Under the pieces are notes generated by a model. It ran no database searches. It had not been told where the DNA came from and was given only the letters and a program-made list of their open reading frames with translations. Source: Boothiomyces macroporosus (taxonomy: Eukaryota; Chytridiomycota; Chytridiomycetes; Rhizophydiales; Terramycetaceae). Taken from it: a stretch of DNA of 64,000 nt. The translations under genes and the position numbers were made by a program. This document shows, piece by piece, positions 155-62,200 of this stretch (positions within the stretch are counted from its first letter, which is position 1; each line of letters starts with the position of its first letter). The stretch lies in the NCBI GenBank assembly GCA_027604185.1, contig JADGKB010000071.1, positions 1 to 64,000 on the forward strand, given 5' to 3'.

Positions 155-475
155 TTACTGTCTAATTACAACTCGCTTGGATTCAATCAAAAACAAGTTC
201 CGCTTTTTAATATGGTACTTCCAACCAATAAACATTTCACAATCTACACAACGCATTTCAGATACTTGAAACCCACTCTTGTAATACGCTTTTCGTCCAA
301 ATTTACAATTTTCCCTATCGTTAGCTTTAGTGTACATTTGCGGAAATAAATAAGCTTCGTCTTTGCTCGACCGCAGTTCATTAGATATCATGTCATCCAA
401 ATAGCAAAAGTGAGAGCGACATTTGGAGCAACATATAACTTGTCCATTCAGCAGCTGCGGTATTTTAATTCCCAT
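155..475 (-). CDS. Yippee-like zinc-binding protein, copy 1
   Basis: Predicted 99-residue protein after removal of a 21-nt intron at 315-335. Yippee-family proteins are small single-domain zinc proteins, and their molecular role is not settled. Visible in the sequence are two zinc-ligand pairs, C16xxC19 and C69xxC72, followed by FIGWKY, which matches the family's GWKY end. The N-terminus MGIKIPQLL places the first cysteine pair at the usual distance. In-frame upstream ATG at 520 is possible, but the 475 start fits the family better. A paralogue at 39520-39842 has an intron at the same place, which supports splicing here. This intron is unusual because it is a multiple of three and has no in-frame stop, so retention would add seven residues. 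Confidence 0.8.
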   Translation of the reverse strand: MGIKIPQLLNGQVICCSKCRSHFCYLDDMISNELRSSKDEAYLFPQMYTKANDRENCKFGRKAYYKSGFQVSEMRCVDCEMFIGWKYHIKKRNLFLIESKRVVIRQ

Positions 476-1046
476 AACAATGAATTCGACACCATGCTTT
501 TTATAATCTCCAAACCACATGGTACCACTGTTAAACGCTTGCACTAGCCACAGATTTTTCCAGGATCCACACTGTTACCATGCGTTACAAAGAATGAAAA
601 AAGAAGGAAGCTTTTAAATCTACATTTTTGTATATATGAAATCAAAAAGGGTTTGTTTTGGTTATCTTTATGTCTTTAATCCGAGTTGCTAACCAGCTGG
701 AATGAGGCACTGGCGTAAGGTGGCCAAAAGAGCAATTGAATGAGGCGCACAAACAGAAGAGATTCACATCCATCACTGGTCACAAACCATACATGGCTGA
801 TAGTCCTGCATAACCACTTCCTTGTTTTCAAGTTGGACCACTGATCATCACCAGTAAGCCCTCAATCAAGCTGGAACAACCTTCCAAATGCGAATTCATC
901 TACTGAGCAGTAGCTTTTTCTTTCAACCAACAAAATTCCTCTTTGAAATCATGTTGATTGGAATAATAAGCTTTTCAATCCTCGGTCTAACTCGGGATTT
1001 TTAAAAGGAAACTCAGAGTAAACGGTTTACCAAAATTTTTAACAGA
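476..1046. other. Intergenic, no gene recognised
   Basis: No convincing coding exon was found. Positions about 545-580 resemble the stretch just upstream of the second Yippee gene (shared GGATCCTGGAA and ATCTGTG blocks), so this is probably duplicated 5' flank. The missing first exon of the downstream ankyrin gene may also lie here, but I could not define it. Confidence 0.4.
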
Positions 1047-3407
1047 GAATTACTTTCAAAGGATTTGTTATTGTCAATAGCCGGTCATTTGAATTTGATC
1101 GAGTATCATCAGTTTAGATTCTCAGGTTGCAATGGCTTACCAGCGGAGCCAGAGCTGACATTTCAAGCAATGAAAGAATCCTTACGGAATAACGGTGGAG
1201 TATTTATCAGAGCTAAAATGAAACCGGACGATTATGAACATTTGCTTTCCGTTTGGGATGTAGAGTTGCTCCCAGTAATGTGTTTTCAAAGAGAGAAACA
1301 GTTGGTAATGAAATGGGCAACTTCAGAAAATCTCATTGACACAAGCTTGATCTTTAGATTGGTTCTTGGCAGCGAATTTACGAGTATAGAGTTCACAAGG
1401 TAGCAGGAATGTAATTCTAGAATATTCATGAAAGCAAGTTTCGTAGGTAGCGAAAGCCTTTTCGATTACACACTTGAAAAAACGATTGACGTGAACAATG
1501 CGTTTAGATTCGCTAGTGCCGGCGGCCATTTTCCTTTAATCAAGAAGTTGCTGCAGTGTGATAGAGTAGATTTACAATTGATGAAAACAAACAGCTTTCC
1601 TATTTTGGTTTCAAGGGGATATTTTGATATTGTATTGTACATATGCGAAAGAGTTGAAGGATGTATTGATGCTCGTTGTCTTCGGTTGGCTGTGAATGGA
1701 GGACATTACGAAATGACTAGATATTTTTTACCGTTTATTGATCCCTCATTAGATAATAACTACTGTATACGATCGGCGATTCGAAATGCGCATTCAGATA
1801 TTGTAGAATTACTGCTGAATGATGTTAGAGTTACTCCAAGCTCAGAAGGGTAAATTTGTATTCACTTTAGGTTGAAATTTGCAATATCCAAAGAGTATAT
1901 TGAAATAACGAGATTACTGCTCAATGATTCTAGAGTTGAAGTGGATGGATGTTTAAAGTTGGCCGTGGATGTTGGAAATATTGATATTGTTCAAATGTTA
2001 ATGGGTAGTTATAGTCTAATTGTAGAACATTCCTACTACAAACAAAGCAATTCAGTTGTAAAAGAACTGGGAAATTCGAACCCTGCATTATGTCCATTTG
2101 AGAATGTAGACGAAAGCAAAAAAGTAGCAACACCTTTTAGACAAAAGAAACTAGAAGAAATACCAAAATGTCCAACTTTACCTTCTGGCGAATCAGAAAT
2201 GTATTTTTCAGAAAAAGAAAAGGATTCAGCTCTGCTTTTAGCAATTAAAAAGAGTGATGAACACATATTTAACCTGTTATTATCAGATCCTTCCATTAAT
2301 CCTAGCTTATCAAATAACGCTCCAATTAGGGCGGCGATAAATGCTCAAAATATGGAAATGGTTGCCAAACTACTTCAAGATAGTCGCGTAGATCCATCAG
2401 AATACTCAAACTACTGTTTATATTTAGCAATCAAACTGAAAAATATCAATATTCTCACTATATTACTGAGACATCCAAAGGTCAATCCAATGTTTATGGA
2501 AAACAATGCAATCAGTTTAGCAGTGCAAAGTGAAAATATAGAAATTTTGATAGCACTATTACACGATGGAAGAGCTGACCCTACTGCCTTAAATCAATAT
2601 CCACTTAAATTAGCAGTTATGAGGCGGTTACCCATTTTTGTATCTGTTTTGCTGAAGGATAATAGAGTCGATCCTTGTGCTGATTCTAGTTTTTCATTAT
2701 GCGAAGCAGTTAGATTACAAAATATTGAGATTGTGGATATGCTTTTGAAAGATGGACGAGCAAATCCAAACGATAATGGGCAATATTGCATAATGGAAGC
2801 ATGTAAATCTGGAAACTTGGATATTGTTAAATTGCTTGTTGCCGATGAACGCGTAGATCCAGCGTGTAATGATAATGCTCCAATCAGATTTGCTGTGGAA
2901 AGCGGGAATTTTGAACTTGTTGAATATTTTGTGCAATTACCAAATGTCGATCCGAGTGCTAGCAATCAAGACGCAATCCACTCTAGTATAGTTATTGGCA
3001 ATTACAATATATTTAAACTGCTTTTGCAAGACAAACGAGTTGATCCATCACAAAGAGAAGATGAATCGTTGATCAATGCAGTAGCAAGAAACTCTATTCA
3101 AATAGTTCAAAGTTTACTTGATGATCCCCGTATATCCATCGAACTGGACGATTACTACACTTTTCGATTGGCAATACAGTTGCAAAATGTAGATATCGTA
3201 AAGATGTTTTTAATGTGTCCCACTCTGGATCCAAATGCTGATGACTCTTTTGCTTTACGATATATTTGCTTTGTAGGTAATAGAGAAATACTCAAACTAC
3301 TTCTTGCAGATGCTCGACTTTTAATTACACAATCTGCGCAGGATTCTGCTACAGCTGGCGGTAATCTAGATATATTTGAATTACTTGATGATCATAGAAA
3401 TAAATAA
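1047..3407 (+). CDS. Long ankyrin-repeat protein (5' end unresolved)
   Basis: About 772 residues are readable after removing 21-nt introns at 1400-1420 and 1850-1870. Both are multiples of three with an in-frame stop, and joining restores continuous repeats. The N-terminal ~110 residues (SIAGHLNLIEYHQF and a GGVFIRAKMKP segment) are an F-box-like or capping region rather than ankyrin. From about residue 150 there are some 15 degenerate ankyrin repeats with the recurring LLxDxRVDP signature. Around 2030-2230 lies a charged, Pro/Ser/Lys-rich insert that breaks the repeat series. Ankyrin stacks bind protein partners, and no partner is indicated here. The frame is open upstream to 1005 without an ATG, so a first exon is missing or the 5' end is lost. 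A relative lies at 26323-27738. Confidence 0.8.
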
Positions 3408-3437: not shown

Positions 3438-5624
3438 TCATTTCAAGACATTGACAATTCTTTTGCTCTGGTTTACAATCACGTTTTTGTAATGCTCTAT
3501 CCCCAAATCGTTTAAAACAACTTTTTTCAAGAGCTCATCTTCCATTTCTCCAATCTGCATTTCTTTGACTCGCTTTCCATTTACAAGTATTCTATAACTG
3601 TCGTTTACTTTTTCTGTTTGTGTGTGTTTAGGAAATTCGAGCATTTTCCCAGGTTGTATCTTTTCATACAATCGTGATGCGGTTTCTGGGGTGAAAATTG
3701 ACAGCATTTCTAGCAAACGCTTCATACCCTCGGTACTATAGCTGGTGTGTAAACTTGTGCAAAGCTTCATTAATTCGGTTATTGCCAAATTGAACTGAAA
3801 ATTTTCAATATATCGGGTTACCTATATCAGTTGAAATTACTTTGGTTACAGTTGTGTTAGCTAGTCTTTCCTGTTCAAGGTTTACTGTAAAGGGGGTTTC
3901 CACTAAATCTTGCACTCTATTCAAGAAACGTTGCATTCCTACAATCGCAGTTGCATCCCAAGCCAATTCATCTTGGGGAGGCGCCTTGTAAAGAATGAAC
4001 AATCTCGTAACATCTGTTCCATACTGCTGGATAACTTCATGTGGATTGACCCCATTGAATTTACTTTTGCTCATCTTTTCAAATGTAACTTTTACAGGAC
4101 TAGAAGTTGATTTCGCTCTTGGTTGATTATCAACATATTCAATTTCGTTTGATGGAATATAGCGGTGGGTGTTTTGACATTTAAAAGTGATTCCAGTAAC
4201 CATTCCTTGTGTCAGCAGTTTCTTGAATGGCTCTCCTTTTGGAATATCAATCAGCTTGATATCCGTTAGAAATTTGGATATGAATCGGGCATACAATAAA
4301 TGCATTATTGAATGTTCTATTCCTCCAACGTAGATGTCAACTGGAAGATTGTTCAGCTTTCCCTTTGAAATCAATTCTTTGTTGTTGTGAGAATCTAGAA
4401 ATCTTATCCAGTACCAAGACGAGTCCACAAACGTATCCATCGTATCACTTTCATATCGCGAATCTGCCTTGCACCTAGAATTAATATAAAGTACTTGGGA
4501 CATTCTGGGGTTTCATTTTTATTCTCTAGTTTCAAAGGCAAATCAGATTCGGGAATAGGCACGGCTTTACATGATGGACAATGAATGACTGGAATGGGAG
4601 TTCCCCAATATCGCTGTCTAGATACTAACCAATCGCGTAGCTGATATTTAGTTACTGGTGGATAGCTGTCTTTTGATAGACTTGCTGAGTAGTTGATGCC
4701 ATATTTATCAATGTATTTTTGATGTGTGGGATTATTGTACTCTCCCAATTCACATCCTTCGATATCATTTAACATAAACCTCGTTATATGTATAGGGATC
4801 TCCTTACACTCTGAGTTTGATGCGTAAAGCCCAGTGAATATTCCATCGATTTCTTTTGAAGAATTGCGGTCCAGTAATACACTGTCAACATACTGTTTAA
4901 TTTCCGGGTTCTTTCTCAAATCTTTAACCAACTGATGACTCAGTCCAATGGCTATGAAATGCCCACTTGTAACTGATTCAGATGAAAAGCATTCCAGGGT
5001 TTGTCCTTTAACGGTGAATTTGATCAGCCTTCCGGTTTTTGGTTTAATCCAATTTCGCTGTTGCTGCTTTACAGCCTCTGGCCAATCCAACTCATCTAAA
5101 TCCTTGTATAATCTCTCCGCATACTGTGTGATTTTAAAATACCATTGCTTCAAGTATTTCTTTTCCACAAGGGCTCCGCTACGCTCACCTTTTCCGTTAA
5201 TCACTTGTTCATTCGCCAAGACAGTCTTGTCCACGGGATCCCAATTAACTACACTCTCTTTCTGATAAATCAATCCCTTTTCGTACAGTTTCAAGAATAT
5301 ATATTGAGTCCATTTGTAATATTTGGGATCGCTGGTGTACAATTCATTTGTCCAGTCAAAATCAATATTCATTTTCAAAAGCTGATTCTTCATTTGACTG
5401 ATATTATGATTGGTCCATTCTTGCGGGTCTTTATTGTTGAATTTGGCGGCATTCTCTGCTGGTAATCCAAAACTATCCCATCCTATGGGATGCGTTGTCT
5501 TGTAAAAGCGAGAAATTACATCCGCGATAGTGTATACTCGTAGATGCCCCATATGCAGCAACCTGTTTAGTTGAATTCGTTACCCTGAGGGATATGGGAA
5601 CATGGCGAGGATATATTTTTTCAT
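3438..5624 (-). CDS. LARS2: Mitochondrial leucyl-tRNA synthetase, reduced editing domain
   Basis: Class I synthetase charging mitochondrial tRNA-Leu. It is 708 residues after removing introns at 5563-5583 (21 nt), 4475-4494 (20) and 3822-3840 (19). Each join restores family sequence: FPYPSG to the HMGH signature (residues 17-20), the TPECPK/CKADSRYESDTMDTFVD join, and VTRYIENFQFN. KMSKS is present near residue 500. The protein is shorter than the roughly 860-900 residues usual for bacterial and mitochondrial enzymes. The CP1 editing insert is about 130 residues instead of about 190, and its TTRPDT-like and GTGAVMAVPAHDQRD-like motifs are not recognisable, so post-transfer editing is probably lost. 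The start ATG at 5624 lies only seven codons before MFPYPSG, so the usual N-terminal helix and a clear targeting peptide are missing. It is divergent from the gene at 5661, with 36 bp between the starts. Confidence 0.93.
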
Positions 5625-5660: not shown

Positions 5661-7636
5661 ATGAAGTTGCTTTGTGCGGTGATCGGGATAGCTCTAGCGA
5701 AAAGAAAGATGGATTTCGAATCGGAACTGCGATCTAAATGGTTTACGGAATTCCAAAAACAAGTAGATCTTACGAAAGCTTATCCAGAAGCATTTAGTTC
5801 GATTTTTTACAAACTGGACGGCGATCGTGAAGTATACGTAGATTTCAATAACGGCACATGTTATACTTTGGATGGAGAATCGAAAGGCGCTCCAGACTCG
5901 GATACGCTATGGAGAATAGGAAGCGTGACAAAGATGTACACTGCAAGTGCAGCATTTCAATTGATTGAGCAAGGCTTATTGGATAGAACTGCACCAGTAG
6001 CAGACTACCTGCCTTGGTTGCAAGATCAAGTCAAAGAGCAAAATCTATTGGTTCAAGATTTGTTGCAGCATACAACTTCATTTGACGAAGGAGGTCTTTG
6101 GAATAAATGGCCAGTTGATTTCCCACATTCTCCAACACCGCACAAGGACAGTTTTCAGAAATTTACTACAGATTATATTGATAAAGTCGGGGTTTTTGGT
6201 GGACCAAGCTATTCTAACCAAGGTTGGGTGCTTCTCGGGGCTATAGTTGAAGAAATAGTTGGAAACCCTCTAGGTGATTACCTAAAACGAAACATCTTTA
6301 GCAATCTGGATATTAAATCTAGTGGATTTTCCTATCAACAGCCGAATTTAAATAATCTGTGCTTTTCAAAAGATGCGAAAGCAAACCTTGAATTGTTTGA
6401 TGTTGAAGGGTATGCTACTGGTGATATGGTATCAAATCCCAAAGATGTATTGCGTTTCTTTCGTGCAATGTTGAACAACGGTAAAGGAATCTTCAAATCT
6501 CAATCAACCATGGATTTAATGAAGAAGCCAATGTATTATCACGATTGGTATGGTGAAAATGGATATATTAATGGGTTTGAGTTTCAACAACATGGAAGCA
6601 TAAAGATTTGGACCAAAGGTGGGGCGATTCCTGGGTTCTCTTCTTTTGCATTTATCATTCCAGAATTTAATGAAGCTGGAGTGTTCTTTAGCTCTCCTCT
6701 CATTCACCATTACCCAAAGGCCCTAAACGCGTATTTAAACATTCTGCATCCCAGCGAATTGAATGCTGTATCTTCAAAGTACAAGTTTGCGCAACCAACT
6801 CTGCAAAATATTGCTGCTACTCAAAAAGTAAAGGTGCTCTAGAATTAAAACAGGGACATTTTAGAAACAAGAGAACTATTTGGCATGGGGTTTTAAAGTA
6901 TTTCATGATGCCATATCCTCCATTTATTATCCGTCCTCTTGCAAATTCCAACAAGATTGCAGTAATACTAAACTCTATGCAATACAACTTGCAACTAGTA
7001 GAGAAAACAAATAGTTCTGACCCGCTACCAAATAATATTTTACTGTTTCAAGACCTAAATCGAACGCTGTCAATATCAGTCATCTTTCAGAAAAAGAGAA
7101 TTAGTAAAATAGTAGTATCTGGCAGTTCGCAAGGAACCCAGACTACACACTACCCAAAGACTCTACTCGATGGTTATTTTCTTGTTCAAGCTGGGCTACT
7201 GGTAAATGCAGGGACGCATTTACTGTCATTTGTTTTAGCATTCCTGGCAATCAAGAGATTTGTTGAAAGTAAATCAGAAAACGACGAATCAACACCACTT
7301 ATTAATGCAGCACTTGGAAGCAACCTATGCCAAAGGATTATTGATATCTTGGCCGTTACTACTCCTTTATTTAGTTTGCTATTTCTTTCCATAGTGGTTA
7401 AACTGTTAAACAGCGGGAGTGTATCTATTGAAGACAAGCCAAGAATTATTGTTGCTCAAGTATCCCTCTTACTATTTATAATCTTTATAGGATTAATTGT
7501 ACTGGTAACTGGTGTTGGCTGCTTCAAGAAAGCCAAAGTTGCTAATCGGTGGTTGATCCTCCCCATTGCAGTACTTCAGGTATTTGGCTTGATTCAAGTG
7601 ATTAATCTGAATTTAATCCAATTCAGAGTATGGTAA
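5661..7636 (+). CDS. Beta-lactamase-fold serine hydrolase with C-terminal membrane segments
   Basis: Predicted 651 residues after removing a 20-nt intron at 6834-6853. A hydrophobic N-terminus (MKLLCAVIGIALA) suggests secretion. The class C beta-lactamase/penicillin-binding fold is shown by the SxxK motif SVTK (S88, K91) and the YxN motif YSN (184-186). Fungal relatives act on esters, amides or peptides, and the substrate cannot be inferred. The second exon adds a beta-rich stretch and then about four hydrophobic segments (roughly genomic 7165-7630), so the catalytic domain would be tethered to a membrane facing the lumen or outside. Without the splice the enzyme would end at 6842 and the membrane part would have no credible start. 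It is convergent with the stress-protein gene at 7673, with 36 bp between stops. Confidence 0.85.
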
Positions 7637-9139: not shown

Positions 9140-9187
9140 CGATTTGGTTATTCACGTTGGAGGTTAAATACCAAAAATTACGTTGGT

Positions 9188-9194
9188 TGAGTCA
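9188..9194 (-). promoter_or_regulatory. TGAGTCA (AP-1/Gcn4-like) site upstream of USP 2
   Basis: Perfect TGAGTCA 49 bp before the start codon at 9139. The regulatory role is inferred from its recurrence in the array. Confidence 0.5.
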
Positions 9195-45954: not shown

Positions 45955-48900
45955 ATGTGGAATCTGATCTTGACTCTATTTGTAATCCTGCTTTCGTGGT
46001 ACTTGTTCTCCCTCCAAAAGATAATCCGGATAGAATCAGTAGGTTTCCTATCTCTGTGCAACATCACCATTACTCTAAAGCAAGTAATCAAGATCAAGAA
46101 ATTAACTGTCTATCCAGGCAAGAAATTTGTCTTTCATTTGAACGGAACCAGAGTGTATATAGAAAAAGAAGAGTCGGAAAAGGACGTGATTAAAGATACG
46201 AAACGGATCGTTAATCAAATCAACCAGCTGTGTCGAATTCCCTTGTTTATTTTTTCATTTTTTAGGATAGAACTCAATGATCTGTTGGTATATTTTGTGG
46301 ATGATTTCGAATACTGTTTACAAGTAGATGAAATTATCTTGGATACCAGAGTTGGTAATTTTAGCTGATTCTAGAAACTATTCAGTGTTTGAGTAGTATA
46401 ACGTCACAGGAATCTGTATCTTCCCAAGCGACGCTACATTCGCCTATTAAAGAATCCATTCAGAAGAAAAAGACAATTGGTTACATTCAAGTCGGTTCCT
46501 CCAAAGTGCAAGTAGGGAAAATCAATATTTGCGAATTTGATTCTTTGGATATTCAGTTCAAGCAGTTTGATATCACGGTTGTTTTAAATGATTTCAATCT
46601 CTACGCCAGTCAATTAAAAGATTTACAAAAACATAAACCTAAAGAATCGTTGATTACAAAAATTGAAACAATTCTATTGCAGTTATCTCTTGTACAGTTG
46701 GAAGCGGATATTCAATTTTATTTCAACAGTATTAGAACAGCAGTATTTATAGATGATATGATGCTGATGACTGATTGTGATTTGTTTATGTCTCAGTCAA
46801 AACAATCATTAGAGCTAAGCAACACTAGTGTAGATAAAGATGTAGAAATTGCTAGTATTGAAAACCTCAAAATCACCAGCTGTATTTCTATCATGCAGAA
46901 AAAAGACTTTGTCAACTCTTCATTTGAATTAATGATTGAATGCAAAATAATATGTAATAATGGATTCTTTATTCTGCAGCAGTCGGAAAAGAAAGAAAAA
47001 GAGGATTTGCCCGTTGTTTACCTGCTGGATTTGATTAAGCTGAAGTTGGACTTTGAGCTAAACAATTTCACACTATTGGTACCACTAGTTACCACCGATG
47101 TATATTTTGAAACTGATGAAATTGTTGATGACGAACATTTAAAGTTGAATATTATAAACACCAGTTTATCAATCAAACCGATTTCTATTCCAAAAAGAGC
47201 TTCCCAAATTGGACCTGCAAAATTCATGGACGGTATTCTAGAATGTAGAGGAATCAGCATGGAAATCAACAAGCCTGTTCTAATTGTGGACATGTTACGA
47301 ATATCTACCATTGTTAAGACTGATTTATCATTCGATTATTCAATACTAATCCCAAAAGTAATGCTTGATGCCACTGAAGTCGCTGATTACAAACCTCAAT
47401 TCTCTACTGATGATTCTGAAAAGGAAAAAACAATACAGTTGAATGGAAGTATCAATTTCGATATTGATAATATTCAAGTAGAAACCAGGAACAAGCAAGA
47501 TGAAAAAATGAATCTATTGGGCCAAGTTAAAAAGCTGAATGGATATGTATTATTACCTGAATCGACAATTAAATTAGAAGTACATGCGCCAGTACTACGG
47601 GCGATTCATGGAAAATACAGTTACGATATTATCAAAACTTCATGTATAAGCGTTAGTCAAAACTGTTTAGGAGCTCCATTCATTGTTCATACAAAGGATA
47701 TTCATTTAGATATATCAATCACAAAGATCTATATCGGCCTGTTATCTGTATTGCAATTTGTAAAACCTGGACAAGACTCTAATCCCCAAAGATTTGAAAT
47801 CAAAGTACCCCACTTTATATTTAATCTTGAACTACCAGACAAAGTCTTTCTACTGTTTAGTTTCAAAAACAATAGATTGACCAATAACAAGAAAGATTGG
47901 AATATTACCTTTGATGAATTAAATATCTCGGCTGAAAAAAATGAAAAGGTTCAATTGGCAAATATGATTGAAAACCAAATTGATTTTATCGAAGGTTCTT
48001 GTTGCTAATGTAGGCAAACCAATCACATTAAATTTTTCCACTAGTTTTATCAGAATTACTATTCCGCATAACTGGCCAATGTTTAACGTCCTAGAAAATA
48101 TGATTAGCCTACACAAGACTGTAAAACTGCTGCTCGTTACACATTTAAATGCTTCAATGACAAAGTTTGAAAAAGGAAACAGCACGTACGATATGGCCAA
48201 CTGTCCAAACGTTTTCTTGAAAACCAGCTCTTTACAGGTACTATTTGAAGACGATTACTTTGAATCAAAACTATCCCGAAATTACCAACTCGCTTTTGAT
48301 GAAAATATTTCCAGACTCAAAAGAGAAAAAGAGTTTATAAAGTATGCGAAAACTAGATTAAAGTACAAGGAGCACACAAACTACATTCCATTTGAATTAT
48401 TTGACAAGACTACAAAGAAAGCTTATGATTTGCTGCAAGAATATGATTCCAAATCATATATTGATGTTATTAATTCTCATCCTACAAAGCTACCTCCTTT
48501 AATGGAAGCAAATTTCTATAGTCTTACAATCAAAGTGTCATTGGCAAAAGTAAAAGGATATCTGGAAGAACTAATCCATCAAATTGATATCACCACTCCA
48601 AGCACATTGGTTTACTCTGATCTCTTGCCCCTTGACCTTAAAGTGCTGTTTTGTGGGTGTGAAGTTCGACTTCGAGACTATTCCAACCCTATACTGTATT
48701 TACCACAAAGTACTTCATTTTGGGAGACGAATGGATTACTGATCGTTGCGGATCCAGTATCACCAAAAGAATCAGAGAAAATACTGGATATACCTTTGGA
48801 TTATGGAGATGTAATCAAAATCAAACGCAATGTGAATCCGACAAAGCTATACACACAATCTGAAACTGTAGTGAATACCTCGGTGATTCAAGTTTGTTTA

Positions 48901-51900
48901 GGGGCGGCTTTTGAACCATGTGTGGCAAATCTAATTACTATAATTGATAATTTCACGCTTCCTAGCGAAGATCCTAGTGAGCCTGTTGGTTGGTGGGATA
49001 AAATCCGCATGATACTGCATGGATCAAATACAATCAAGGTTAACAGCGGAGATTTTAATATGCGAATTCTAGGAAGTATGTCTCCATATTTTGATCCAAA
49101 GAAACATTTCGGAGTGGAAGGAATAGAGTGGAGCATGTCCAAAACAGTTACCATTACATTTGGTGGTGAAACTGAAAAAACGCAAATTATATTCGAATGC
49201 GGAGAGTTTAAACTCAATATTCCAAAGAAAAACACTGTGTGTTTAGGCAAACTGTTTGGTGGTGTGCGAATCGGCTTTACTATCGATTACCTTACTATAT
49301 TGAATGGGAAAATAGTTGAACCAACTAAAAATCACTACCAAGTAGAACTTCAAACCAAAAACGGAAAAATCAAGGATTCTTTTGAAGGATTTAGGAGTAG
49401 CAATATCAAAGTGATCTTGGAAATCCAATCTCCGAGAAAGTTTTATAGTGATTTGCCATTCAGTCAAAACTGTCTATTTTTGAATACAGAAACCTTGCAT
49501 GGAATAGAAAAGATTTTCCAGGTTTATCAGTCATTGATTACCAACTTGCCAGTCAAGCGTGGAAACTTGTTTAATGGAGACAATTTATTACTCAACAAAC
49601 CCAAGCTAGGGCGAGTGATTAGTTTTGTCCATTTGAAAACCATTTTTCAACCTTTAATGCTCAGCTATATACTCGAATGTGAGGATTCCAATGATTTTGT
49701 AGGGCTGCGTTTGCAAGCTGATCAAATGATTACAGACTACCAGTTTAGACAGTATGATGTAAAATTAGAAAGAACTTCATTGGACAGAAAGAACGTTACC
49801 AAATGGATCAGAGAACACAGCTCTCTTTCTTTTATTGAAATTGAAGGTAGAGTGTTATCGTACTGTTCAGATGACTCGGATCTGTATATTCCTAATCATT
49901 ATGAAACCCCAACTGAAAAAATGAATGATTTGTTCAACTGGATATTCACCGAAGACACTCAATTCAAGAACCTGGATTTACTAGAAATGACAACGTGTAT
50001 ATGGGCTCCACGTGTTGATTATATGGGAATAGAAACCAGCAAACAAACTTATGAAACCGAGAAAGAGTCTACAAAGACTATATATGAAATTCAGTACCAG
50101 CTTTTCAACCAGCGATTAAATGAACTGAATTCATTGATATGGGAGCACGAACAGGAAAAGAGACTTTCTGAAAGTCGAGGTGCAGTCTTTTTTGATGATA
50201 CTAATGAATCCACTGCCAAATTTACAGACATGCTCTCACTTTTGCTTGCGAAAAAAAAGGTCATTATGGACAACATGGAAAGATGCAAGTTCAAAATCTT
50301 TGGATATACTGATAAGAGTGAAATTGATGTTTCGCAGGCTTTCGACAGCAAGTATATCGTACATAACCTTCGACTTTTATGGAACAGTAATTACTTAATA
50401 ACCTAGTACCTATTCGAAACATCATTTTTAGGCTGGTTGAAATGCACAGCAAAAACTCTGCGTTAGAGTATTGTATGTCAAATGCAGCCGCGCAAGTTGC
50501 AGCTGAACTGGTTGAAACGCTAAACAAGGAACAGACTATGAAAACTAGGCGGGAAAGTATATTGAAAGTCAATAATAGCTTTGATCCAGAAAAAGTTCTG
50601 AAAATGCTGTTGAGAGATTTGGAGACGGGCAATAACATTGTCTACTGTGAAACTGATACGGCGCCAGTAATTCAGGAAGAGCTGGCTTCTACTACGTCCC
50701 TATTTCCACCAAACAAATCGTCTGTAGATTTGACGCATCCAATCGATCACGATGTCCTAGTCAGATTCATCAATCCGCAAATCAACTTTGAAGTTCTGCA
50801 AGATGATTCTAATAGCTCGGTTGTTTTGGCTGCCCATCGTATGCAAGTGAAATTTCTTCGGCTATTAGATAAGCTAAAGAATATTGATCAAGAAGGACAA
50901 GACAACATTATCAAATTTAGGAATATATGGTCGCTTGAAGAAACCCAGCTACTTGTTCAAGAATCCAGTCGTAAAGAAAAGCCTTTGTTTAGTATAGATA
51001 CTATAGAGCCTTATCCAGTGTGGGTACCAATAGAATCTTTGTTGGACCACAAGGTTGTTGCTCCTAAATTTGGTAGAATTATCAACAAAGCACATTTGGT
51101 GTTCCAGACTGATAAACCAAATCCATTGTACATTCAACGGCACAAGAGCGAGTTGGTAGCGGAAGAGCCAATTACATATCACTTCACTATTCCAAACTTG
51201 GAGATGACTTCGACTTCGAGGCAGTATTTGATCTTTTACGATCTGTTCCGTAATCTTTTGGTTTATATGGATCCTGCCAGAGGTGAAAGGGCAGATAGAC
51301 TAAAGAAAACATTACTGGCGCTGGAGCAAGCAGATGATATAAAGTACTATCAATATGCGTTGCTTGCTCTTCAAGAGAAAGTCAATGATACCGAATTTGT
51401 TCTAAAGTACGGAAAGAATGGGAAATTACTCTCTGAATCAGAATTTATACTTACAAGACAGAATTTGTCTGACTTTCGCCAAGATTTGTATATTTTAATG
51501 GAAGCTTTGAAGAATTTGCAGATTATTGAGAAACAGCGACAGTCTTTGAATGTTGCATGGCAGTTATTAGTTAAAATTGACAAGTATGTCTGGAATTTAG
51601 ACTTGGATAATTCACAGCCACTTTGCAGATGGACAATGAACGAACTATCATTTGTGTGGATCAATAATGAAGATCAGTCATCCATCAACACACTTGAAAT
51701 CGATCATATGGAATTGGAAAATCTTACTCCATCAGCCTATCGACATGTAATATCCCCGTACAATCCTCAGCAAAAAGATATTAATTTTGAAAAACACAAG
51801 ATGATTAGAGTTTATTGGAGAGAGAATGCACCAGTTGCTGGAATCCAAGTTGTCGATCACTTTGAAATCAATATTCATCCGTTGTTGATCCAGGTTACTT

Positions 51901-52593
51901 ATGAATTTGGCAAGTTATTTGCGCAATATATATTCCCTCAAAAAGACAGGAAAACGATTGAATTAAAGAGAGAAGAAAGACGGCTCTCAGTCCGCGATAC
52001 TCCGGTATCTACTCAAATCAGACAAATGCAGGTTCGAGCTAATGAAAACAAGTCATTTATTCACATCAAAGTACCTGGAGTTCAACATTGTTTATCTTAC
52101 AAAGGCTCAAAGGAAAAGAATATTGAAGACTTGCACATGTTTACTTTTAATCTGCCAACTTTAGAATACAGAAACAAGACCTGGACCTGGATGGATTTCC
52201 TTCAAGCAATTCGAAAGGGTAATTTGCATTAATCCAGATGCACTAAGAGCTGCTTTGGCCAACACTGGGGCCCTAGTACGTGAAAAGCTGTTTGTTAAAA
52301 AAGACGAGCCTCGTTCAAGTGTTGGTGAACGATCTATACATTCAAATGATTCCCTAGATTCTATCAAAGGAGAAACAACGCTATCAAAATCCATCAAAGG
52401 AGAAACAACCCTGTCAAAATCTACAAAATTTATAAAAAAAGCGATTACCAAAACCAAGGAAATGACTGAGACTGGACTGGATAAATTTGAACAGCTTGTT
52501 AGGGATGAAAAAAATGAAGAATTGTCACTGATTAATCAAAAGGGCAAGCTCTTCTTTGGAAAGCATTTTAATATTGCTCAAGAGAAGCACTAG
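45955..52593 (+). CDS. BLTP2/FMP27 (Hobbit/SABRE) bridge-like lipid transfer protein
   Basis: 2186 residues from five exons (human BLTP2 about 2235). The introns are 46355-46374 (20), 47995-48013 (19), 50387-50406 (20) and 52219-52237 (19). It starts with an N-terminal membrane anchor (MWNLILTLFVILLSWYLF) and continues as a long repeating-groove protein. Family blocks include ITLNFSTSFIRITIPHNWPMF, RIIFR-like FRLVEMHSKNSALEYC and HNLRLLW just before a splice. These proteins bridge ER-plasma membrane (or ER-mitochondrion) contacts and move phospholipids in bulk. A 10-residue tandem repeat (SIKGETTLSK twice, about 52356-52415) lies in the tail. All four joins keep the frame and fit the family. 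Confidence 0.93.
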
Positions 52594-52821
52594 ATTAATA
52601 TACCATTTTTGAATACGTGGGTTATCCAATCACTCTGTTCCGCTTATTGATCGCATTTACTAGATGATATAAAGTAGTTAGTTTCAATATCTCTGGTTGA
52701 ACGCAGTTAATCTTGCTTTCAAATTAATCCTGGTGGCTCTTTCCTATTACGAAAAAGAAACGAAATCCACAATTCACAAAATCCTTTATTCTGATTTAGC
52801 TTTCCTAGCATTAAAGCCAAT

Positions 52822-53239
52822 TTACATTTTCAAACGAGCTTGCTGCAGCATGTATTTCTTCCTTTGCAATAACATTTCTGCTCTCTTTTCTGCATTGTCG
52901 GTCCATTCTGCTTTTGGAGCTTCAACAACTTCATCCGTCAGATATTTCGAAATATCTGCTTTTTTCGGTTGTACTTTTTGTGGTTGAGGAACAACTTGGG
53001 GTGTTTGGATTATAGGCTAGTTAGTATTAAAGTACCAATCTCCCACTTAGTATATTTTCTATGGTTTGCTGTGTATTTCCGGTAATTTGCAAGTCGTTGA
53101 TGATGGACTGTCGGGAAACGTTTGGGAATAAGGACTGTATTTGGTCTATTTGGTCTGTAGTTATTTGCGGTTTGAAAAATACTCGTAGCAGGATAAAAAG
53201 AATTACAAGCGCTATTCCAAGCTGTATGAGATTCGACAT
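52822..53239 (-). CDS. CUE-domain membrane-anchored ubiquitin-binding protein
   Basis: 132 residues from the ATG at 53239 after removing a 19-nt intron at 53017-53035. The N-terminal membrane anchor (LIQLGIALVILFILLRVFF) is followed by a CUE domain (ITTDQIDQIQSLFPNVSRQS ... TIENILSGRL) and a basic helical tail (WTDNAEKRAEMLLQRKKYML). The splice links SGRL to PIIQTPQVVP and on to the tail, as in yeast Cue1/Cue4-like ER proteins. Cue1 recruits Ubc7 at the ER for protein degradation. The tail here may play the same E2-binding role, but this is inference. Confidence 0.85.
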
Positions 53240-53719
53240 TCCAGAAAAAGATTTTGACACTCGAAATTGAAGAGGTTACAAGTGCTGGTTCTCACTGTGA
53301 ATACATTTGCTAAATTGGTTGCGGGTACTTTGAAGGAACTCCTGGAAGAGTCTGTTTTGTTTAACACATTGCAACGCACCATGAGTTATAGCAGCAGTTG
53401 GGTTGTCGATACCACGAGAGCCTCCTAGAATTCCCACACTTCCACTAGGACGCCTACAAGTAGTCAGTTTCCTCCACTATCTGATTTGCCTGCAGCCGAA
53501 AGTGGTTTCTCCCATTCTCTTTAAAGACATTTTAAGGTATCAATCTCTCTAATTACTCAACGATCCTAATCCAACGCGCCAATATGGAAGATCCAACTCA
53601 TGCTCCATAAAAAAATCTTTTACACGTTATCCAAATGCTTTTATTAACCACCCAATCTGTGCGGAAGCTTTCCGGTCTTTTTGAAATTTCTTTGTTTCTT
53701 TAACCACATCTATATTAGT
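53240..53719. other. Intergenic, nothing recognised
   Basis: About 480 bp between the CUE gene start and the PAM17 stop. No exon, RNA or repeat was recognised. Confidence 0.45.
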
Positions 53720-54288
53720 CTATTTTACTCTGTAGTCTTTGACAGATTGAATTCTTTCCCCAAAGTAATCCAAATATCCAACATTATCTCCAGCGCCAAC
53801 ACTAGCATAATCACTTGGTCTGTACTTTTTCAATCTTTTCAAGAATTGTGTTTCCATTGCGTCAAATTCCTTCAAGGTTTGTGATGAGCGCAGTACCCTC
53901 CATAACGGAGTGGCAACCAAGTTACCAGCAACAAAAGAAAGTGCGCCAATGAGAATCATTTCAATTGCATATGCAAACAATGGATCAATACCGAAAATCA
54001 TTTCTGTAGGATCAAATTTAGCTAGAAATAAAAAGTAAAATGAAGATATGTTCAATCCAAGGAATCCTGTTGTTATCATTGATTACCGCTGACGATTCCG
54101 GTTCCTAATTCGTATCTTTTGCGGGACTTGCGGAGGGTAAAGAATGTCTGCCAGTCCATTGGTTTCTTTTCTGTGGCAAATGTGCGGACAGAGTATATTG
54201 ATTTGAAAGCAATTGGCGCACAAGTTAATCTCAGTATCGAAGGCTTCTGTCTTTGTATGGGAGTGAATATGCGTTGCATCCTATTCAT
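53720..54288 (-). CDS. PAM17: PAM17, TIM23 import motor subunit
   Basis: 182 residues after removing a 20-nt intron at 54067-54086, ATG at 54288 (a second ATG at 54279 is possible). The presequence is basic and hydroxylated (RMQRIFTPIQRQK ... SVRTFATEKK). The family blocks are MDWQTFFTLRKSRKRYELGTGI, the DPTEMIFGIDPLFAYAIE loop between two membrane spans, and the GYLDYFGERI end. Pam17 stabilises the TIM23 presequence import motor on the mitochondrial inner membrane. This is a family of fungi, one of the best taxonomic clues in the window. Confidence 0.92.
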
Positions 54289-55043: not shown

Positions 55044-55899
55044 ATGTCCCTAGAAATGTCAATGTACGGCGGTGTCTTTGGCATAGGAATCCCACTAGTA
55101 ATATCCCAATTATACTGTACAGGATGGATTATGCATAAAATATTAAAACAACCAGACATCACTTTGCTTCCAATGACAAAAAAGTTTCCCTTATACCTCG
55201 CTTTCATTGATTTCTGTCTTTCGCTATCACTGATTTTAGACCAATCGCATTCAGTTATTTTTAGACAAGTTTGGCAGGATTCCACTTGTCAGTTATCAGC
55301 TGGAATTGTGCAATTCTTTGGAAGTGCAAATATGATTCTTGTACTTGCAATTTCATTTACCACTTATCTGGCAGTATGTAGAAATATTACTATCGAATAC
55401 GGGCTTTACGACTACAAGCTTTTATCTGCCATTGGAATAATGAGCTTTTTAACAGTGGTACTTTACATTAATGTAGGTGTTTTCAGCTAGCTCTCTCGGG
55501 CCAAGTAGGTACTGGTGCTATGCAGATATATACTCTACAGATAAGCGAGTAGCGATTGTAACCAGCTTCCTCCAATTCATTGCTCTAACTTTAACTATAA
55601 CGTTCTTTACGCTCGTGTATTTAGAGATTAGCAAGACAGTTTCACCAGATCAGGAAATTGGGATTATAAAGGATGGAAGGAGGATTACAAAGTCGATACA
55701 TCATCAGACTACTATGAAGATGGTTAGCTATGTGTTCAATTATATGTTTCAGTGGCTACCAACTGTTCCTTATTTGGTTGGAGTTACTGTTGATTACAAT
55801 GAAGATTGGGTTTATGTCCTGTGTGAAATTGGGCTTAATCTGGGTGGGATACTGAATATGCTTGCTTATATTAGAAACGAAGGATGGAAGTCTTTATAA
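55044..55899 (+). CDS. Seven-transmembrane receptor (GPCR-like)
   Basis: 278 residues after removing a 19-nt intron at 55458-55476, ATG at 55044. The join gives SFLTVVFSASSLGPSRYWC. Seven hydrophobic segments are seen, with a short N-terminus, a cysteine at the start of TM3 (DSTCQLSAG) and one in the second outer loop (RYWCYAD) that could form the typical GPCR disulfide. Intracellular loop 3 is basic (KDGRRITKSIHHQT). The layout recalls cAMP-receptor-like or Git3/STM1-like fungal receptors. The ligand is unknown. A 22-nt donor alternative (55455) would drop one Val. Confidence 0.75.
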
Positions 55900-57890: not shown

Positions 57891-59110
57891 TCAATGATGG
57901 AATACTTTATTAGCGAGATATACTAAAGGATAACGATATTCGTCGCTGTTGAATGGCTTTCTTAGCACTATTGCCGCATGAGCATTAAACGCCTTGTCAT
58001 TATAGATATCGACTTTTTCCCACTCTAGCTGATTGAGATTGTGAATCATTAGCTCTCTCACAGTTTTTTGTTTCAAATCAACTTCATCGATAGATTCTTC
58101 TACTTGAATTGCTGGTGCTTCTGTCGATAGTAGTTTGTTTGGATCTTCTAAATCTGAATCGTTGATCTCCTCTATATGGGTAGCTTGCAGATTTTCTTTT
58201 GAAGACTGATCAAGGTTTTCTTTGGATATGTCATCAATGTCTTCTCTAGAAGCTCTGACCCAGCTGTTTTCAATAGCGAGAGAGTTTTGCCTTACTTTGG
58301 CTCTGGTGGCATTGAAACCAAGACCAATCGTGGCAACTGGAAGCCAAATCGAAAGAAGCACAGGAACTGCAACTAATTTCAGCGCAGTTGGTGCAATATC
58401 ACTGACCGTCCATGGTACTGGTTGTTTTGGTTTAGTTTCGTCTGGGCACACTATTTGAGGATATTCTGGGTCAATTATTCTTGGCTCAAATCGATTGTAT
58501 GGATTCGTACTAGTAATTGATGCGGTACAATATCTACATTAGCAATCTAGTACCTAACAGATCGATCCCCAAGTATATTTGCAAAACACGACCGCCTCTT
58601 GAATAGCGCCAAGCCTTTGTAGAAATCGTACTCTGGGTCCGACATTATCACAAGCAGCGGTTTCCCGTCAATATAATTGTCTTGGAGATTGAATTGGTAG
58701 CCAACGCGTACTAGTACATTGGTTTGAATAGAATTGAAAATGCTGTTTAATACGCTCTGCTTTCTGCTTGTCCCTAGATTTGGACTGGCAAGTGTAACAA
58801 AATTCATTGGCGTAACTATTTTAAAGAATCCTTCATTGTAAAGCCTTCCAACTGCATATCGCAAAATTAATCCGCCCAATGAATATCCAATGAATGAAAT
58901 CTTTTCAACAGGATTGGTTTCCATGAATTTATGAATATCTTGTACTACTCGATCGCCGCAGACGTCCATTCCATCATATGTGAGATTTCCTTGATTAGTG
59001 TCGATATTGAGAAAGAGCAAGTCGGGATGCTGTTCCTTTAAATGCGGAATCACTGATTCTACATGGCTAATGTTTCCCCACAGTCCGTGGTGCAAGACTA
59101 CCAAATGCAT
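57891..59110 (-). CDS. ROG1-like lipase (DUF676 alpha/beta hydrolase)
   Basis: 399 residues after removing a 20-nt intron at 58534-58553, ATG at 59110. The N-terminal half is a DUF676 hydrolase: LVVLHHGLWGN, the nucleophile elbow GYSLGGLILRYAVGRL, and the LASPNLGTSR block. The splice gives ILGDRSVRYCTASITSTNPY, with the catalytic Asp region. A hydrophobic segment (LKLVAVPVLLSIWLPVATIG) may dip into a membrane. The C-terminus carries the conserved NQLEWEKVDIY block and the histidine-containing AHAAIVLRKP. Yeast Rog1 is a monoacylglycerol lipase on lipid droplets, so acylglycerol hydrolysis is likely here. Confidence 0.92.
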
Positions 59111-59254
59111 TTGTACAGCCGAAAAATTCTCAAACCTTTTATACTATTTTTCCACCCATTGTTTTTTGTGCCACTCACCCGTCGGGTATCAGATACAAAC
59201 ACAATTTAATCGAATATACAAAAGAATTTAACAATGATGGAATAATTTATTGTT

Positions 59255-62200
59255 CTACCCTGCAATACCCAAGAGCTTCCTGAATCCAGCCATGCTCTGT
59301 TCACCAGTCTCTTCAGCCATACTCCTAAACATACCATTGGTCTTTGTCATCAAATTATATGGCGTATCAAACTCGCATATTTCACCCGCATCTAGAACCA
59401 GCACTCTATCGTAATCCATGATAGTATTCTACATTAGAATGATCTTACCAATCTATGAGCAATTGTGAGGATAGTACAGTTGGAAAGGTTTTCTCTGATA
59501 CATTTCTGGATAATTGCGTCTGTTTCATAATCTACATTCGCCGTTGCTTCGTCCATAATCAATATCTTGGGCGTGCGTAGCAAGGCTCTTGCCAAGCACA
59601 GCAGCTGTCTTTGACCAACAGACAAGTTTTCACCTCCTTCTTGAACAAATCCATCCAAACCTCCGCACTCAACGACTTTTTGCTTGATATTTGCTTGTTC
59701 CAAAGCAGTCCATACTTGCTGATCAGTATATTCAGAGAATGGATCCAAGTTTCTTCTAAACGGACCAGAAAACAATACCGGGTCTTGAGGGATAATTCCA
59801 AGCTTGGAACGCAAGTCCTTCAGCCCAATCTTCCAAGTATCAATACCATCGATAATAATCTTTCCATCAGCCGGCTCAACCATTCTAAACAAAACTTGCA
59901 TAATAGAAGATTTTCCGGAACCAGTACGACCAACGATACCAATCTTTTCATTATCATTCACTTTGAAGGAAATGTTTTTCAATACCAACGGTAATTCTGG
60001 AGAGTATTTCATTGCAATATTCTCAAATGAAATTTCACCTTTGGTTGGCCATTGCTTGTCAGGACGTGTTTCTGTAATATGTGCGTTTTCTTGTGGCAAG
60101 TCAGTTCCATAATAAGTTACTCTTTCAACTGCATTCATAGCGATTTCAGTATCAGTTAGTTGGCGAATGCACCAGGATAGTGTTCCAGTTACTTGAAGAG
60201 AGTAGGAAAGAGTCAATCCAAATAATGCAGCAGAGAACCATGGAGAAGTTCTGGATAAAAGACCAAACAGGGCACAACAGAATACCAGCACGGCACCAAG
60301 GACTTCTAATCTTAAACTGAGCCATCTAGCGGTGCAAATGAGTAGGAATAATGGTGAATTGTTGTGATCAACATAGTCTTCATTTGCTTTGATAAATCTA
60401 TCCTGTTCTCTGTAAGCTCGAATGGTTCCAAGCCCAGTAAGAGTTTCACCAATATGGGCATACATCGGAGATCTAGTCAGTGAATCCAATCTCTTTAGTT
60501 CTCTTGAAACAGCGCGGTAATAACCCTGAATAATCCAGTATAATGGGAGAATAATCACTAGCGGCACAGCAAAGATTGGTGTAGATACAACAATAAGCAA
60601 AAATACAGCGATTGTATCCGAAGCAGTGGAAAAGAACATTCTGAAGGAGTCTGGCAATGTGTTGTCAATAACATCTAAATCTTTGGAAAACCTGTTAATC
60701 TATCGTTAAACAAATCTTACAATTCTACCAAGCGGTGTTGCATCGTAAAACGATACCGGTGACTTTATGATTCGTTTGAACGCATTTTCGTGTAATAGTT
60801 TTGCAGCTTGAGTTCCAAAGTATGCAAACGTCATTCCAAGGTTGTACGAAAACAGTGTTTGCGCAAACCCTAAAGAAAGATATACACCAATGTAGGCACC
60901 GGTAGAGAAATTTGGGAAGGAGTTATTGCTCCACTCGACTAGCCACAGGTTTGTTCCAATTTGAGCTGCTTCATACATAATCAATCCGAAAATAGTTGCT
61001 ACTAAAAATGTAAAACTTCCAGCGGCTTTGAAATATCCAAACCAGATACTAGATTTAACTGTACCGATTGCACGATCTTCGGCTTCAGTCAGTACAAACT
61101 TTTCCTTCTTTGCTTTACTATCCATGTTCTTTTCAATTCGATCCAAGGCTTGGTCGTCTGAAGCAGCACTAATATCATCATCTGAATCAGATTTATGTTC
61201 AGCACTGCCATAGCTGTTCATTAAAGTACAGAACTCTCCCTTTGCCTCCATTAATTGTTCATACGTGCCCTGTTCAGCAATTCTTCCATTGTTCATTACT
61301 ACTATATAGTCAGTTTGTGGTAGGAAGTGAAGTTGATGGGTAACCAAGATCCTGGTTTTTCCTTCCATAGCTTTTGAGATACAGGTTTCAAACAGGTATC
61401 TTCCAACGTGGGCATCAACAGCAGAGAGGGGATCATCCATAAGAATGATATCTGGACTGTAATACAGCAACCGTGCCAAATTAACTCTTTGTTTTTGACC
61501 ACCAGACAAGTTGATTCCTCTTTCGCCAATTTCAGTCAAGTCGCCGTCAGGCAAAACAGTGAAATCTTTTTCCAATGAACAATCTCTAATGACTCGAAGG
61601 TATTTCTCTTGATCATAAGGCAACCCGAAAAGAATATTTCCTTGCACAGTGTCGTTTTGAATCCAGGCTTGTTGAGCTGCATAACCAACTGACCCTGAGA
61701 ATGACACTTTTCCTTTTGTCTTTTTGGTTTCACCGATTAAACTGCTCAGTAAAGTAGATTTTCCTGATCCCACTGTTCCAACTACCGCAACTAGTGCACC
61801 TTTCGGAATTGTCAGATTGACATCTTTAAGAGTTGGCTCTTCAGTCTCTGTTACATTTTCATCCCAGTAAAAGTTTCCATCTGTTACTTTGACAGCTTCG
61901 GTCATTGACGGATCAGGCTTTTCTTGGGGATCTAGTTCAGAAGCCAAAAGTAATTCTTGAATACGAGTGATTGCAACTTTAAAGTCTACAAATTGGACGA
62001 TTGACATTGGAATAAAGATCATTGGAAATCGAAGCTGGTTGAATAGTGCAAGAGCGGCAAAGATATTGGCAGGATTGAGTGTATTTGTAGCACCGTAAAT
62101 GATAAGGGAGATAGCTGCTGCAAATACAGGGACAGAGAATGCCAATGCCATAATAAGAGCTTGAGTGAAACTAGAATAAGAATCAAATTACCTTCTCAAG

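Follow-up and report, generated by a model that had tools for sequence, protein, structure and literature searches.

The DNA analyzed here is a stretch of 64,000 nucleotides from Boothiomyces macroporosus, a free-living saprotrophic chytrid of the order Rhizophydiales, family Terramycetaceae. It comprises positions 1 to 64,000 of one contig (C71:1-64000) in an assembly of 15,203,306 bases and 216 contigs, and is referred to below as the window. Genes in the window include homologues of VAC14, CFAP57, EB1 and a leucyl-tRNA synthetase, and many of them are interrupted by segments of about 20 nt that begin with GT, end with AG, and have the properties expected of very short spliceosomal introns. 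We examined the lengths and number of these segments, their effects on reading frames, their sequence signals, and the spliceosome components encoded in the assembly.

Lengths, number and coding effects of the introns

Introns were called with a motif-free gene finder based on dynamic programming, which used codon usage from long open reading frames, start and stop codons, one pair of end dinucleotides and a flat penalty, and which allowed introns of 10-120 nt. With GT-AG as the pair, 30 of the 52 introns placed in the window were 18-22 nt long; ten other dinucleotide pairs used as controls gave 0-5 introns of that size. In 200 kb from two other contigs, GT-AG gave 134 of 254 introns at 18-22 nt, compared with 9-23 for nine control pairs. 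The window and these 200 kb together make up the sample of 264 kb, out of 15.2 Mb, on which the genome-scale counts are based.

Later runs used a codon table derived anew from gene models with permitted intron lengths of 15-30 nt, together with a motif model in which splice motifs were learnt from the calls and the length prior was flat from 12 to 200 nt, the upper limit of modelling. This model placed 265 of 305 introns, on three contigs, at 18-24 nt: 18 (2), 19 (63), 20 (120), 21 (47), 22 (28), 23 (4), and 24 nt (1). The remaining 40 calls were spread over 26-196 nt. When motifs were trained on two of the three stretches and applied to the third, with the codon table shared by all, 44 of 49, 120 of 144, and 94 of 108 introns fell at 18-24 nt (258 of 301 together). 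Twelve permutations of the motifs yielded 2-92 introns at 18-24 nt versus 265 with the real motifs (21 or fewer in nine permutations; 55, 59, and 92 in the other three), 10-36 versus 11 at 25-60 nt, and 21-71 versus 29 at 61-200 nt. Because calls of 25-200 nt stayed within the permuted-motif range, no class of ordinary length was detectable up to 200 nt in the sample. A total of 333 introns was counted in 148 gene models, 101 of them intron-bearing, from which the genome would be extrapolated to contain about 19,000 introns, the same order as Batrachochytrium.

Within the window, a permissive run that allowed lengths of 17-24 nt at low penalties placed 61 introns in 23 genes, with lengths of 18 (1), 19 (19), 20 (26), 21 (14), and 22 nt (1). 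Two stricter runs placed 52 introns each; in one, 50 were 18-22 nt long and the others were 26 and 29 nt, and in the other all 52 were 18-22 nt. These counts agree closely with the original prediction, made from the window alone, of 59 introns in 23 genes between 315 and 62191, with lengths of 18 (1), 19 (16), 20 (28), 21 (13), and 22 nt (1); the outermost introns, at 315-335 and 62171-62191, were recovered. Its statement that ordinary introns of 50-100 nt were not found also held, in that calls of 25-200 nt did not exceed the permuted-motif controls, and its central claim, tiny GT-AG introns throughout the genome of a zoosporic fungus, was borne out by the sequence of the sample, from which we infer the splicing itself.

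Removal of the tiny introns joined exons into proteins that match those of relatives. CFAP57, which has eight junctions, was compared with 5 of the 120 homologues listed, and VAC14, which has seven, with 4 of 120; each of the 15 junctions was gap-free against one relative or more. Nine of the 15 were gap-free in every relative aligned, Batrachochytrium being among these for both proteins; the other six lie near ends, in variable stretches, or where one of the relatives carries an insertion or an incomplete sequence. The gene for the splicing factor U2AF65, elsewhere in the assembly, has four junctions, and all four fit the relatives (6 of 120 listed homologues aligned), giving 19 of 19 for the three proteins together; at its first junction a 19-nt intron restores the block MFLLPCHLLK, which reads LFLLPCHMLK and MFLLPSHLLK in Globomyces and Kappamyces. 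PAM17 with its two tiny introns removed matched Pam17 (PF08566) at 132.7 bits over residues 35-189. The earlier claim that splicing joins known protein blocks is therefore upheld by the 15 junctions in VAC14 and CFAP57. Of the gene names given with it, VAC14 and CFAP57 stood by named homologues. Pfam matches were to leucyl-tRNA synthetase, EB1, and Hobbit/BLTP2 for the genes called LARS2, EB1, and BLTP2, and to CPL plus PUF (PUF6 type), Pam17, DUF676 (ROG1 type), and DUF155 (RMD1 type) for those called PUF6, PAM17, ROG1, and RMD1. For the genes called ACSF2 and ABCC, the Pfam matches (AMP-binding and ABC transporter) are at the level of the family.

Among the matches listed, the closest relatives of VAC14 were those of Terramyces, Globomyces, and Boothiomyces. 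The deposited Terramyces protein is gap-free across junctions 2-7. That of Boothiomyces JEL0866 crosses junctions 2 and 3 and then skips the stretch from junction 4, and the JEL0866 CFAP57 crosses all eight junctions. These patterns would fit correctly called tiny introns and, equally, other gene structures. The Globomyces VAC14 has 10 extra residues exactly at the position of intron 1 (20374-20392), the ends of which would fit a retained 30-nt phase-1 intron; this one case, seen in the protein alone and not used here as evidence, hints that short introns may extend beyond Terramycetaceae.

A retained intron shifts the reading frame if its length is not divisible by three, whereas an intron of 21 nt is translated unless it contains a stop. 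An in-frame stop on retention was found in 58 of 59 called 21-nt introns, a figure that depends on the setting, because a lower penalty gave 57 of 63. At other lengths such stops were found in 44 of 76 (19 nt), 94 of 146 (20 nt), and 14 of 34 introns (22 nt), or 59% together. Since the gene finder favours stop-bearing introns, high-scoring candidates within exons (those reaching the lower quartile of intron scores) were counted as translatable introns. In this conservative count, 41 introns divisible by three had a stop and 5 lacked one (1 called, 4 in exons), as against 120 and 80, respectively, among introns of other lengths (Fisher p about 1e-4). Neither lowering nor raising the penalty altered this result (40 and 5; 41 and 5). 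The stop enrichment is a further kind of evidence: it suggests that the segments are introns and that RNA surveillance, most likely nonsense-mediated decay (NMD), acts on transcripts that retain them. Such selection against translatable introns is described in Paramecium and other eukaryotes (PMC11334263).

Two deposited gene models were compared with ours. The VAC14 model (HK103_006596) matches the window across 781 residues without a mismatch. It has none of the seven tiny introns and uses introns of 146, 70, and 62 nt instead, the 70-nt intron joining a true donor to a later AG; it joins VAC14 to the short-chain dehydrogenase gene next to it and stops shortly past junction 4. The U2AF65 model (HK103_002678) maps to contig C2 with 0 mismatches in 578 residues, and has three of the four tiny introns (20, 19, and 19 nt) at the same places as our gene finder, plus a further 19-nt intron in an upstream gene; it also has a 253-nt intron that fuses two genes and a 52-nt intron that deletes the MFLLPCHLLK block. 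Of the five longer introns in the two models, those of 62, 70, and 52 nt delete blocks kept by relatives, and those of 146 and 253 nt fuse genes. In these two models the deposited pipeline was able to see tiny introns but did so unevenly, which provides independent support. Because the deposited annotation already holds some of them, the tiny introns are, as far as we found, undescribed rather than unseen. Public gene models of B. macroporosus should be used with caution; they can miss or distort tiny introns, and part of the predicted proteome would therefore be wrong.

Splice signals and spliceosome components

In the motif model of the sample, the donor was (A)AG/GTAATT (the slash marks the splice site), with A at +3 in 92%, T at +5 in 49%, and G at +5 in only 13%. 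The branch motif was YTAAY, with T at -2 in 262 and A at -1 in 208 of the 265 introns; the position of the branch A was set by the motif model, and YTAAY belongs to the model that selected these 265. The motif was present in the motif-free calls too, which read GT...YTAAY...AG inside and had exon flanks of AG/ and /A, not TA (this finder allowed GT-AG only). From the first G to the putative branch A the distance was 13 (106), 14 (122), 15 (28), 16 (7), or 17 nt (2), and thus 13-14 nt in 228 of 265. The tail after the branch A was 4-8 nt long (5 or 6 nt in 246 of 265), which leaves no room for a polypyrimidine tract. Judged by their GT-AG ends and by a branch motif complementary to GUAGUA of U2, the introns would be of the U2 type.

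The original prediction had proposed a search of the assembly for spliceosomal components. That search succeeded in large part: the small nuclear RNAs (snRNAs) U1 (just under its cut-off), U2, U4, and U6 and the genes for PRP8, SF1, and U2AF65 were found, and U5 was not. The 5' end of U1 is ATACTTACCTGG, both of the two U2 copies in the genome contain GTGTAGTATCTG, and U6 has ACAGAGA on the reverse strand of its locus (L021); we take all three to be of the standard type. It was observed that the +5 position of the donor favours T over G despite this U1 5' end. Searched exon by exon, U2AF65 scored 230.7 bits; this is below the family cut-off (310.3), but homologues confirmed its identity. The models of PRP8 (first part only), SF1, and U2AF65 themselves have 2, 3, and 4 introns of 19-24 nt. 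From the components sampled, the major spliceosome appears to be largely encoded.

The N-terminus of CWC25 reads MGGGDLNLKKSWHP, which contains the GGG plug. Its alignment to the CWC25 chains of the solved structures 5yzg (human) and 5gmk (yeast) starts at residue 1; the yeast chain reads MGSG. The gene model has 43 more in-frame residues upstream, from an earlier in-frame ATG, and the second ATG was taken as the start because homologues start there. If the start is the usual one, CWC25 keeps its GGG plug. ISY1 matched the Pfam Isy1 family from position 4. The CWC25 locus was found twice, as identical loci of 3,111 bases (L031 and L032, on C49 and C100), and kinase matches at C10 and C65 and RNA-recognition motif (RRM) matches at C20 recurred with equal scores; these repeated loci would be unmerged haplotypes or recent duplications.

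A TATAAATA box lies upstream, and a ATTAAAATGAAA box downstream, of the U1 gene and of both U2 genes (3 of 3), and the core TTAAAATGAAA occurs once in the 264-kb sample, both strands counted. An exact search found neither box at the U4 and U6 loci. The boxes are possibly a chytrid signal for snRNA 3' ends.

Interpretation and comparison with other tiny-intron genomes

We conclude that nearly all introns detectable in the B. macroporosus sample have almost certainly shrunk to 18-24 nt, with a mode of 20 nt, and would be removed by an ordinary U2-type spliceosome. Several observations weigh against this conclusion. Removal by splicing is read from coding sequence. With the penalty lowered, the calls included five or six 21-nt introns that lack a stop. 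U1 scored 68.8 bits with its covariance model, 0.7 bit under the Rfam cut-off of 69.5; U5 gave no match with its model, which is not decisive because the prokaryotic controls were blank too, and RED was not found in the assembly, the prokaryotic controls being likewise blank. Calls of 49 and 46 nt are present in the ISY1 model and one of 55 nt in the later part of CWC25, and a few real longer introns may be among the 40 calls of 26-196 nt. Finally, we found no structural precedent for a spacing of 13-14 nt: in human systems the branch site has to lie about 50 nt from the 5' splice site, a B-complex structure implies about 52 nt, and RED is needed for human short introns (PMC6692369).

Three other explanations were weighed. 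It is very improbable that the segments are real but mostly kept in the mRNA, with frameshifted or truncated proteins resulting from decaying genes or sequencing errors. Such retention would be in keeping with the deposited VAC14 model, which reads on past junction 4 and then stops. Random errors, however, would produce none of the patterns seen: GT, branch motif, and AG at fixed spacing, in motif-free calls as well; restoration of the relatives' protein blocks at every one of the 19 junctions; and stops in 21-nt segments far above expectation. Excision from the DNA, like that of ciliate internal eliminated sequences (IESs), or by a non-spliceosomal RNA mechanism is scarcely credible. GT-AG ends and a YTAAY motif five to six nt from the end are spliceosomal features, and U1, U2, U4, U6, PRP8, SF1, and U2AF65 are encoded, although the fixed tiny lengths do resemble those of some excised DNA elements. 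Ciliate IESs have TA-type direct-repeat boundaries, whereas the motif-free flanks here were not TA, and the control pairs (TA-TA not among them) gave no peak.

The third explanation, that the tiny introns exist beside a sizeable class of ordinary fungal introns missed by the gene finder, is unlikely. A sample of 264 kb modelled up to 200 nt leaves some place for such a class, and the deposited models do hold introns of 52-253 nt; yet the 29 calls at 61-200 nt and the 11 at 25-60 nt were no more than permuted motifs gave, and all five longer deposited introns either delete kept blocks (three) or fuse genes (two).

If the tiny introns are removed by a U2-type spliceosome, the branch point would be the A of YTAAY at nt 14-15, U6 would pair with the 5' splice site and U2 with the branch site, and about 2 nt would lie between the two helices (our estimate, from about 6 nt per pairing and a spacing of 13-14 nt). 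Because so little separates the helices, U1 would leave early or bind differently: U1 and U2 are probably not both in their usual places, and either the handover from U1 to U6 would precede or accompany U2 engagement, or U1 would be bound in another manner. The 3' AG would follow the branch A without space for a polypyrimidine tract, and NMD would degrade unspliced RNA, since a retained intron nearly always creates a premature stop. A more specific model can be put forward only tentatively, and we consider it somewhat doubtful. In it, a spliceosome with an intact CWC25 plug, SF1, and U2AF65 works almost solely on a spacing of 13-14 nt and assembles without U1 and U2 together on the intron, with the U6/5' splice site and U2/branch helices abutting. 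A length of 18 nt would be a hard floor, and the upper side would be set by deletion bias together with NMD-coupled selection that forces stops into introns divisible by three.

The published tiny-intron genomes found are from heterotrichs (15-16 nt), mikrocytids (16-17 nt), the chlorarachniophyte algal nucleomorph (18-21 nt) (PMC10245619), and Paramecium, whose introns are somewhat longer; none is fungal. A narrow length peak below about 25 nt throughout the sample is shared by B. macroporosus with Stentor, the mikrocytids, and the nucleomorph, and so, in the 264 kb and up to 200 nt, is the lack of a second class of ordinary introns. Stentor coeruleus has genome-wide GU-AG introns of 15-16 nt with near-fixed geometry, and its tail of 5 nt after the branch A resembles that found here (PMC9505925). 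Its branch A is at nt 10 of 15 without a strong consensus, whereas that of B. macroporosus would be at nt 14-15 within YTAAY, making the loop four to five nt larger. For Stentor it has been proposed that the small lariat is accommodated by an altered N-terminus of ISY1 and by a CWC25 that lacks its GGG plug (PMC9505925). With regard to the plug, B. macroporosus differs in that it encodes MGGGDLNLKKSWHP.

The Bigelowiella-type nucleomorph has nearly the same narrow size range as B. macroporosus (PMC10245619), but it is the relic nucleus of an endosymbiont, whose genes, about 300 in number, hold more than 800 introns, as against the extrapolated number in a nuclear genome of 15.2 Mb. Mikrocytos and Paramikrocytos likewise have uniform tiny introns of conserved sequence; they are parasites, M. 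mackini having 224 introns and a reduced spliceosome of 17-19 proteins without identified U1 or U5 (PMC10245619), whereas U1, SF1, U2AF65, CWC25, and ISY1 are present in B. macroporosus. Paramecium introns (20-34 nt) also show selection against translatable ones (PMC11334263), but with its single stop codon Paramecium avoids lengths divisible by three, and B. macroporosus mainly has in-frame stops within 21-nt introns. The nearest short introns met in relatives of fungi were those of Encephalitozoon cuniculi, at 22-76 nt (PMC3629993); unlike B. macroporosus, this intracellular parasite has broad lengths, few introns, and a reduced spliceosome. Reduction of the endosymbiont or parasite type was not seen in B. 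macroporosus, which has a 15.2-Mb genome, a flagellar CFAP57, and, in the spliceosome as sampled, SF1, U2AF65, and U1.

A literature search that covered few subscription papers turned up no account of tiny introns in fungi, chytrids included, in line with the original prediction, which knew of none in a zoosporic fungus. The B. macroporosus introns set no size record, although, as far as we could find, no other fungus would have a shorter genome-wide set; the encoded CWC25 plug and the intron-rich fungal host set it apart from the known tiny-intron genomes, and what is new here is the in-frame-stop bias of the 21-nt introns and the retained plug. Introns of about 20 nt provide less than half the 5' splice site to branch spacing that human splicing needs, the actual spacing being 13-14 nt, and the lower size limit of spliceosomal introns would become testable in a fungus. 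Because the CWC25 plug is encoded (if the start holds), plug loss would not be required for small lariats at this size.

Coordinates and other features of the window

Table 1. Candidate introns and two genes of the window, and snRNA-associated boxes at three other loci. PWM, position weight matrix score.
Feature	Position	Strand	Remark
VAC14 gene, 7 introns	20286..23020	+	
CFAP57 gene, 8 introns	27843..31541	-	
Intron, 21 nt	315..335	-	permissive run only; PWM 4.9
Intron, 21 nt, putative ankyrin-like repeat gene	1400..1420	+	
Intron, 21 nt, putative ankyrin-like repeat gene	1850..1870	+	
Intron, 21 nt, putative ankyrin-like repeat gene	2005..2025	+	lower-penalty runs only; PWM 4.9
Intron, 19 nt, leucyl-tRNA synthetase	3822..3840	-	
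Intron, 20 nt, leucyl-tRNA synthetase	4475..4494	-	
Intron, 20 nt, weak donor GTGCTC	6834..6853	+	PWM 2.0
Intron, 22 nt, putative cation/H+ antiporter-like gene	16054..16075	+	
VAC14 intron 1, 19 nt	20374..20392	+	junction alignment
VAC14 intron 2, 19 nt	20570..20588	+	junction alignment
VAC14 intron 3, 20 nt	21489..21508	+	junction alignment
VAC14 intron 4, 19 nt	21971..21989	+	junction alignment
VAC14 intron 5, 20 nt	22151..22170	+	junction alignment
VAC14 intron 6, 20 nt	22674..22693	+	junction alignment
VAC14 intron 7, 20 nt	22810..22829	+	junction alignment
Intron, 20 nt, alpha/beta-hydrolase	23482..23501	-	
Intron, 19 nt, alpha/beta-hydrolase	23730..23748	-	
Intron, 20 nt, alpha/beta-hydrolase	24006..24025	-	
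Intron, 20 nt, alpha/beta-hydrolase	24110..24129	-	
Intron, 20 nt, EB1	25036..25055	-	
Intron, 19 nt, EB1, weak motif	25203..25221	-	PWM -0.2
Intron, 20 nt, EB1	25481..25500	-	
Intron, 20 nt, EB1	25674..25693	-	
CFAP57 intron 8, 20 nt	27887..27906	-	junction alignment
CFAP57 intron 7, 20 nt	28295..28314	-	junction alignment
CFAP57 intron 6, 20 nt	28636..28655	-	junction alignment
CFAP57 intron 5, 21 nt	28956..28976	-	junction alignment
CFAP57 intron 4, 21 nt	29451..29471	-	junction alignment
CFAP57 intron 3, 19 nt	30129..30147	-	junction alignment
CFAP57 intron 2, 19 nt	31189..31207	-	junction alignment
CFAP57 intron 1, 19 nt	31497..31515	-	junction alignment
Intron, 19 nt	32091..32109	-	
Intron, 20 nt	32715..32734	-	permissive run only; PWM 6.5
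Intron, 20 nt	32756..32775	-	permissive run only; PWM 5.9
Intron, 19 nt, RMD1-type/DUF155	33951..33969	+	
Intron, 18 nt, RMD1-type/DUF155	34093..34110	+	
Intron, 21 nt, PUF6-type	35841..35861	-	
Intron, 20 nt, PUF6-type	36557..36576	-	
Intron, 21 nt, PUF6-type	36808..36828	-	
Intron, 21 nt, AMP-binding ligase (originally ACSF2)	37597..37617	+	
Intron, 20 nt, AMP-binding ligase	38525..38544	+	
Intron, 21 nt, AMP-binding ligase	38698..38718	+	
Intron, 20 nt, putative arrestin/SH3-like gene	42629..42648	+	
Intron, 19 nt, putative arrestin/SH3-like gene	45310..45328	+	
Intron, 20 nt, putative arrestin/SH3-like gene	45557..45576	+	
Intron, 20 nt, BLTP2/Hobbit	46355..46374	+	
Intron, 19 nt, BLTP2/Hobbit	47995..48013	+	
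Intron, 20 nt, BLTP2/Hobbit	50387..50406	+	
Intron, 19 nt, BLTP2/Hobbit	52219..52237	+	
Intron, 21 nt	52805..52825	-	
Intron, 19 nt	53017..53035	-	
Intron, 19 nt, PAM17	53710..53728	-	
Intron, 20 nt, PAM17	54067..54086	-	
Intron, 19 nt	55458..55476	+	
Intron, 19 nt, ROG1-type gene	57905..57923	-	lower-penalty runs only; PWM 1.8
Intron, 20 nt, ROG1-type/DUF676	58534..58553	-	
Intron, 20 nt, ABC transporter (originally ABCC)	59429..59448	-	
Intron, 21 nt, ABC transporter	60700..60720	-	
Intron, 21 nt, ABC transporter	62171..62191	-	
snRNA boxes, upstream and downstream	L022:1472, 1708		
snRNA boxes, upstream and downstream	L023:1472, 1695		
snRNA boxes, upstream and downstream	L024:1471, 1676		

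Two calls of the permissive run, at 13856-13876 and 18791-18809, had low scores and look spurious, and were omitted from the table. A 26-nt call at 6828-6853 became the 20-nt intron ending at the same position once lengths were limited to 17-24 nt. A 29-nt call at 38516-38544 was likewise replaced by a 20-nt intron; the 29-nt version would make the ligase three residues shorter than its best solved homologues.

An Rfam scan of the window and a tRNA scan gave no match. A tandem array of five putative universal-stress-protein-like genes without introns occupies 7673-10934 on the minus strand, and the putative cation/H+ antiporter-like gene (14927-17246) lies near it. Two putative ankyrin-like repeat proteins, at 1170-3407 (+) and 26323-27738 (-), have a repeated D-x-R-V/A-D-P motif.

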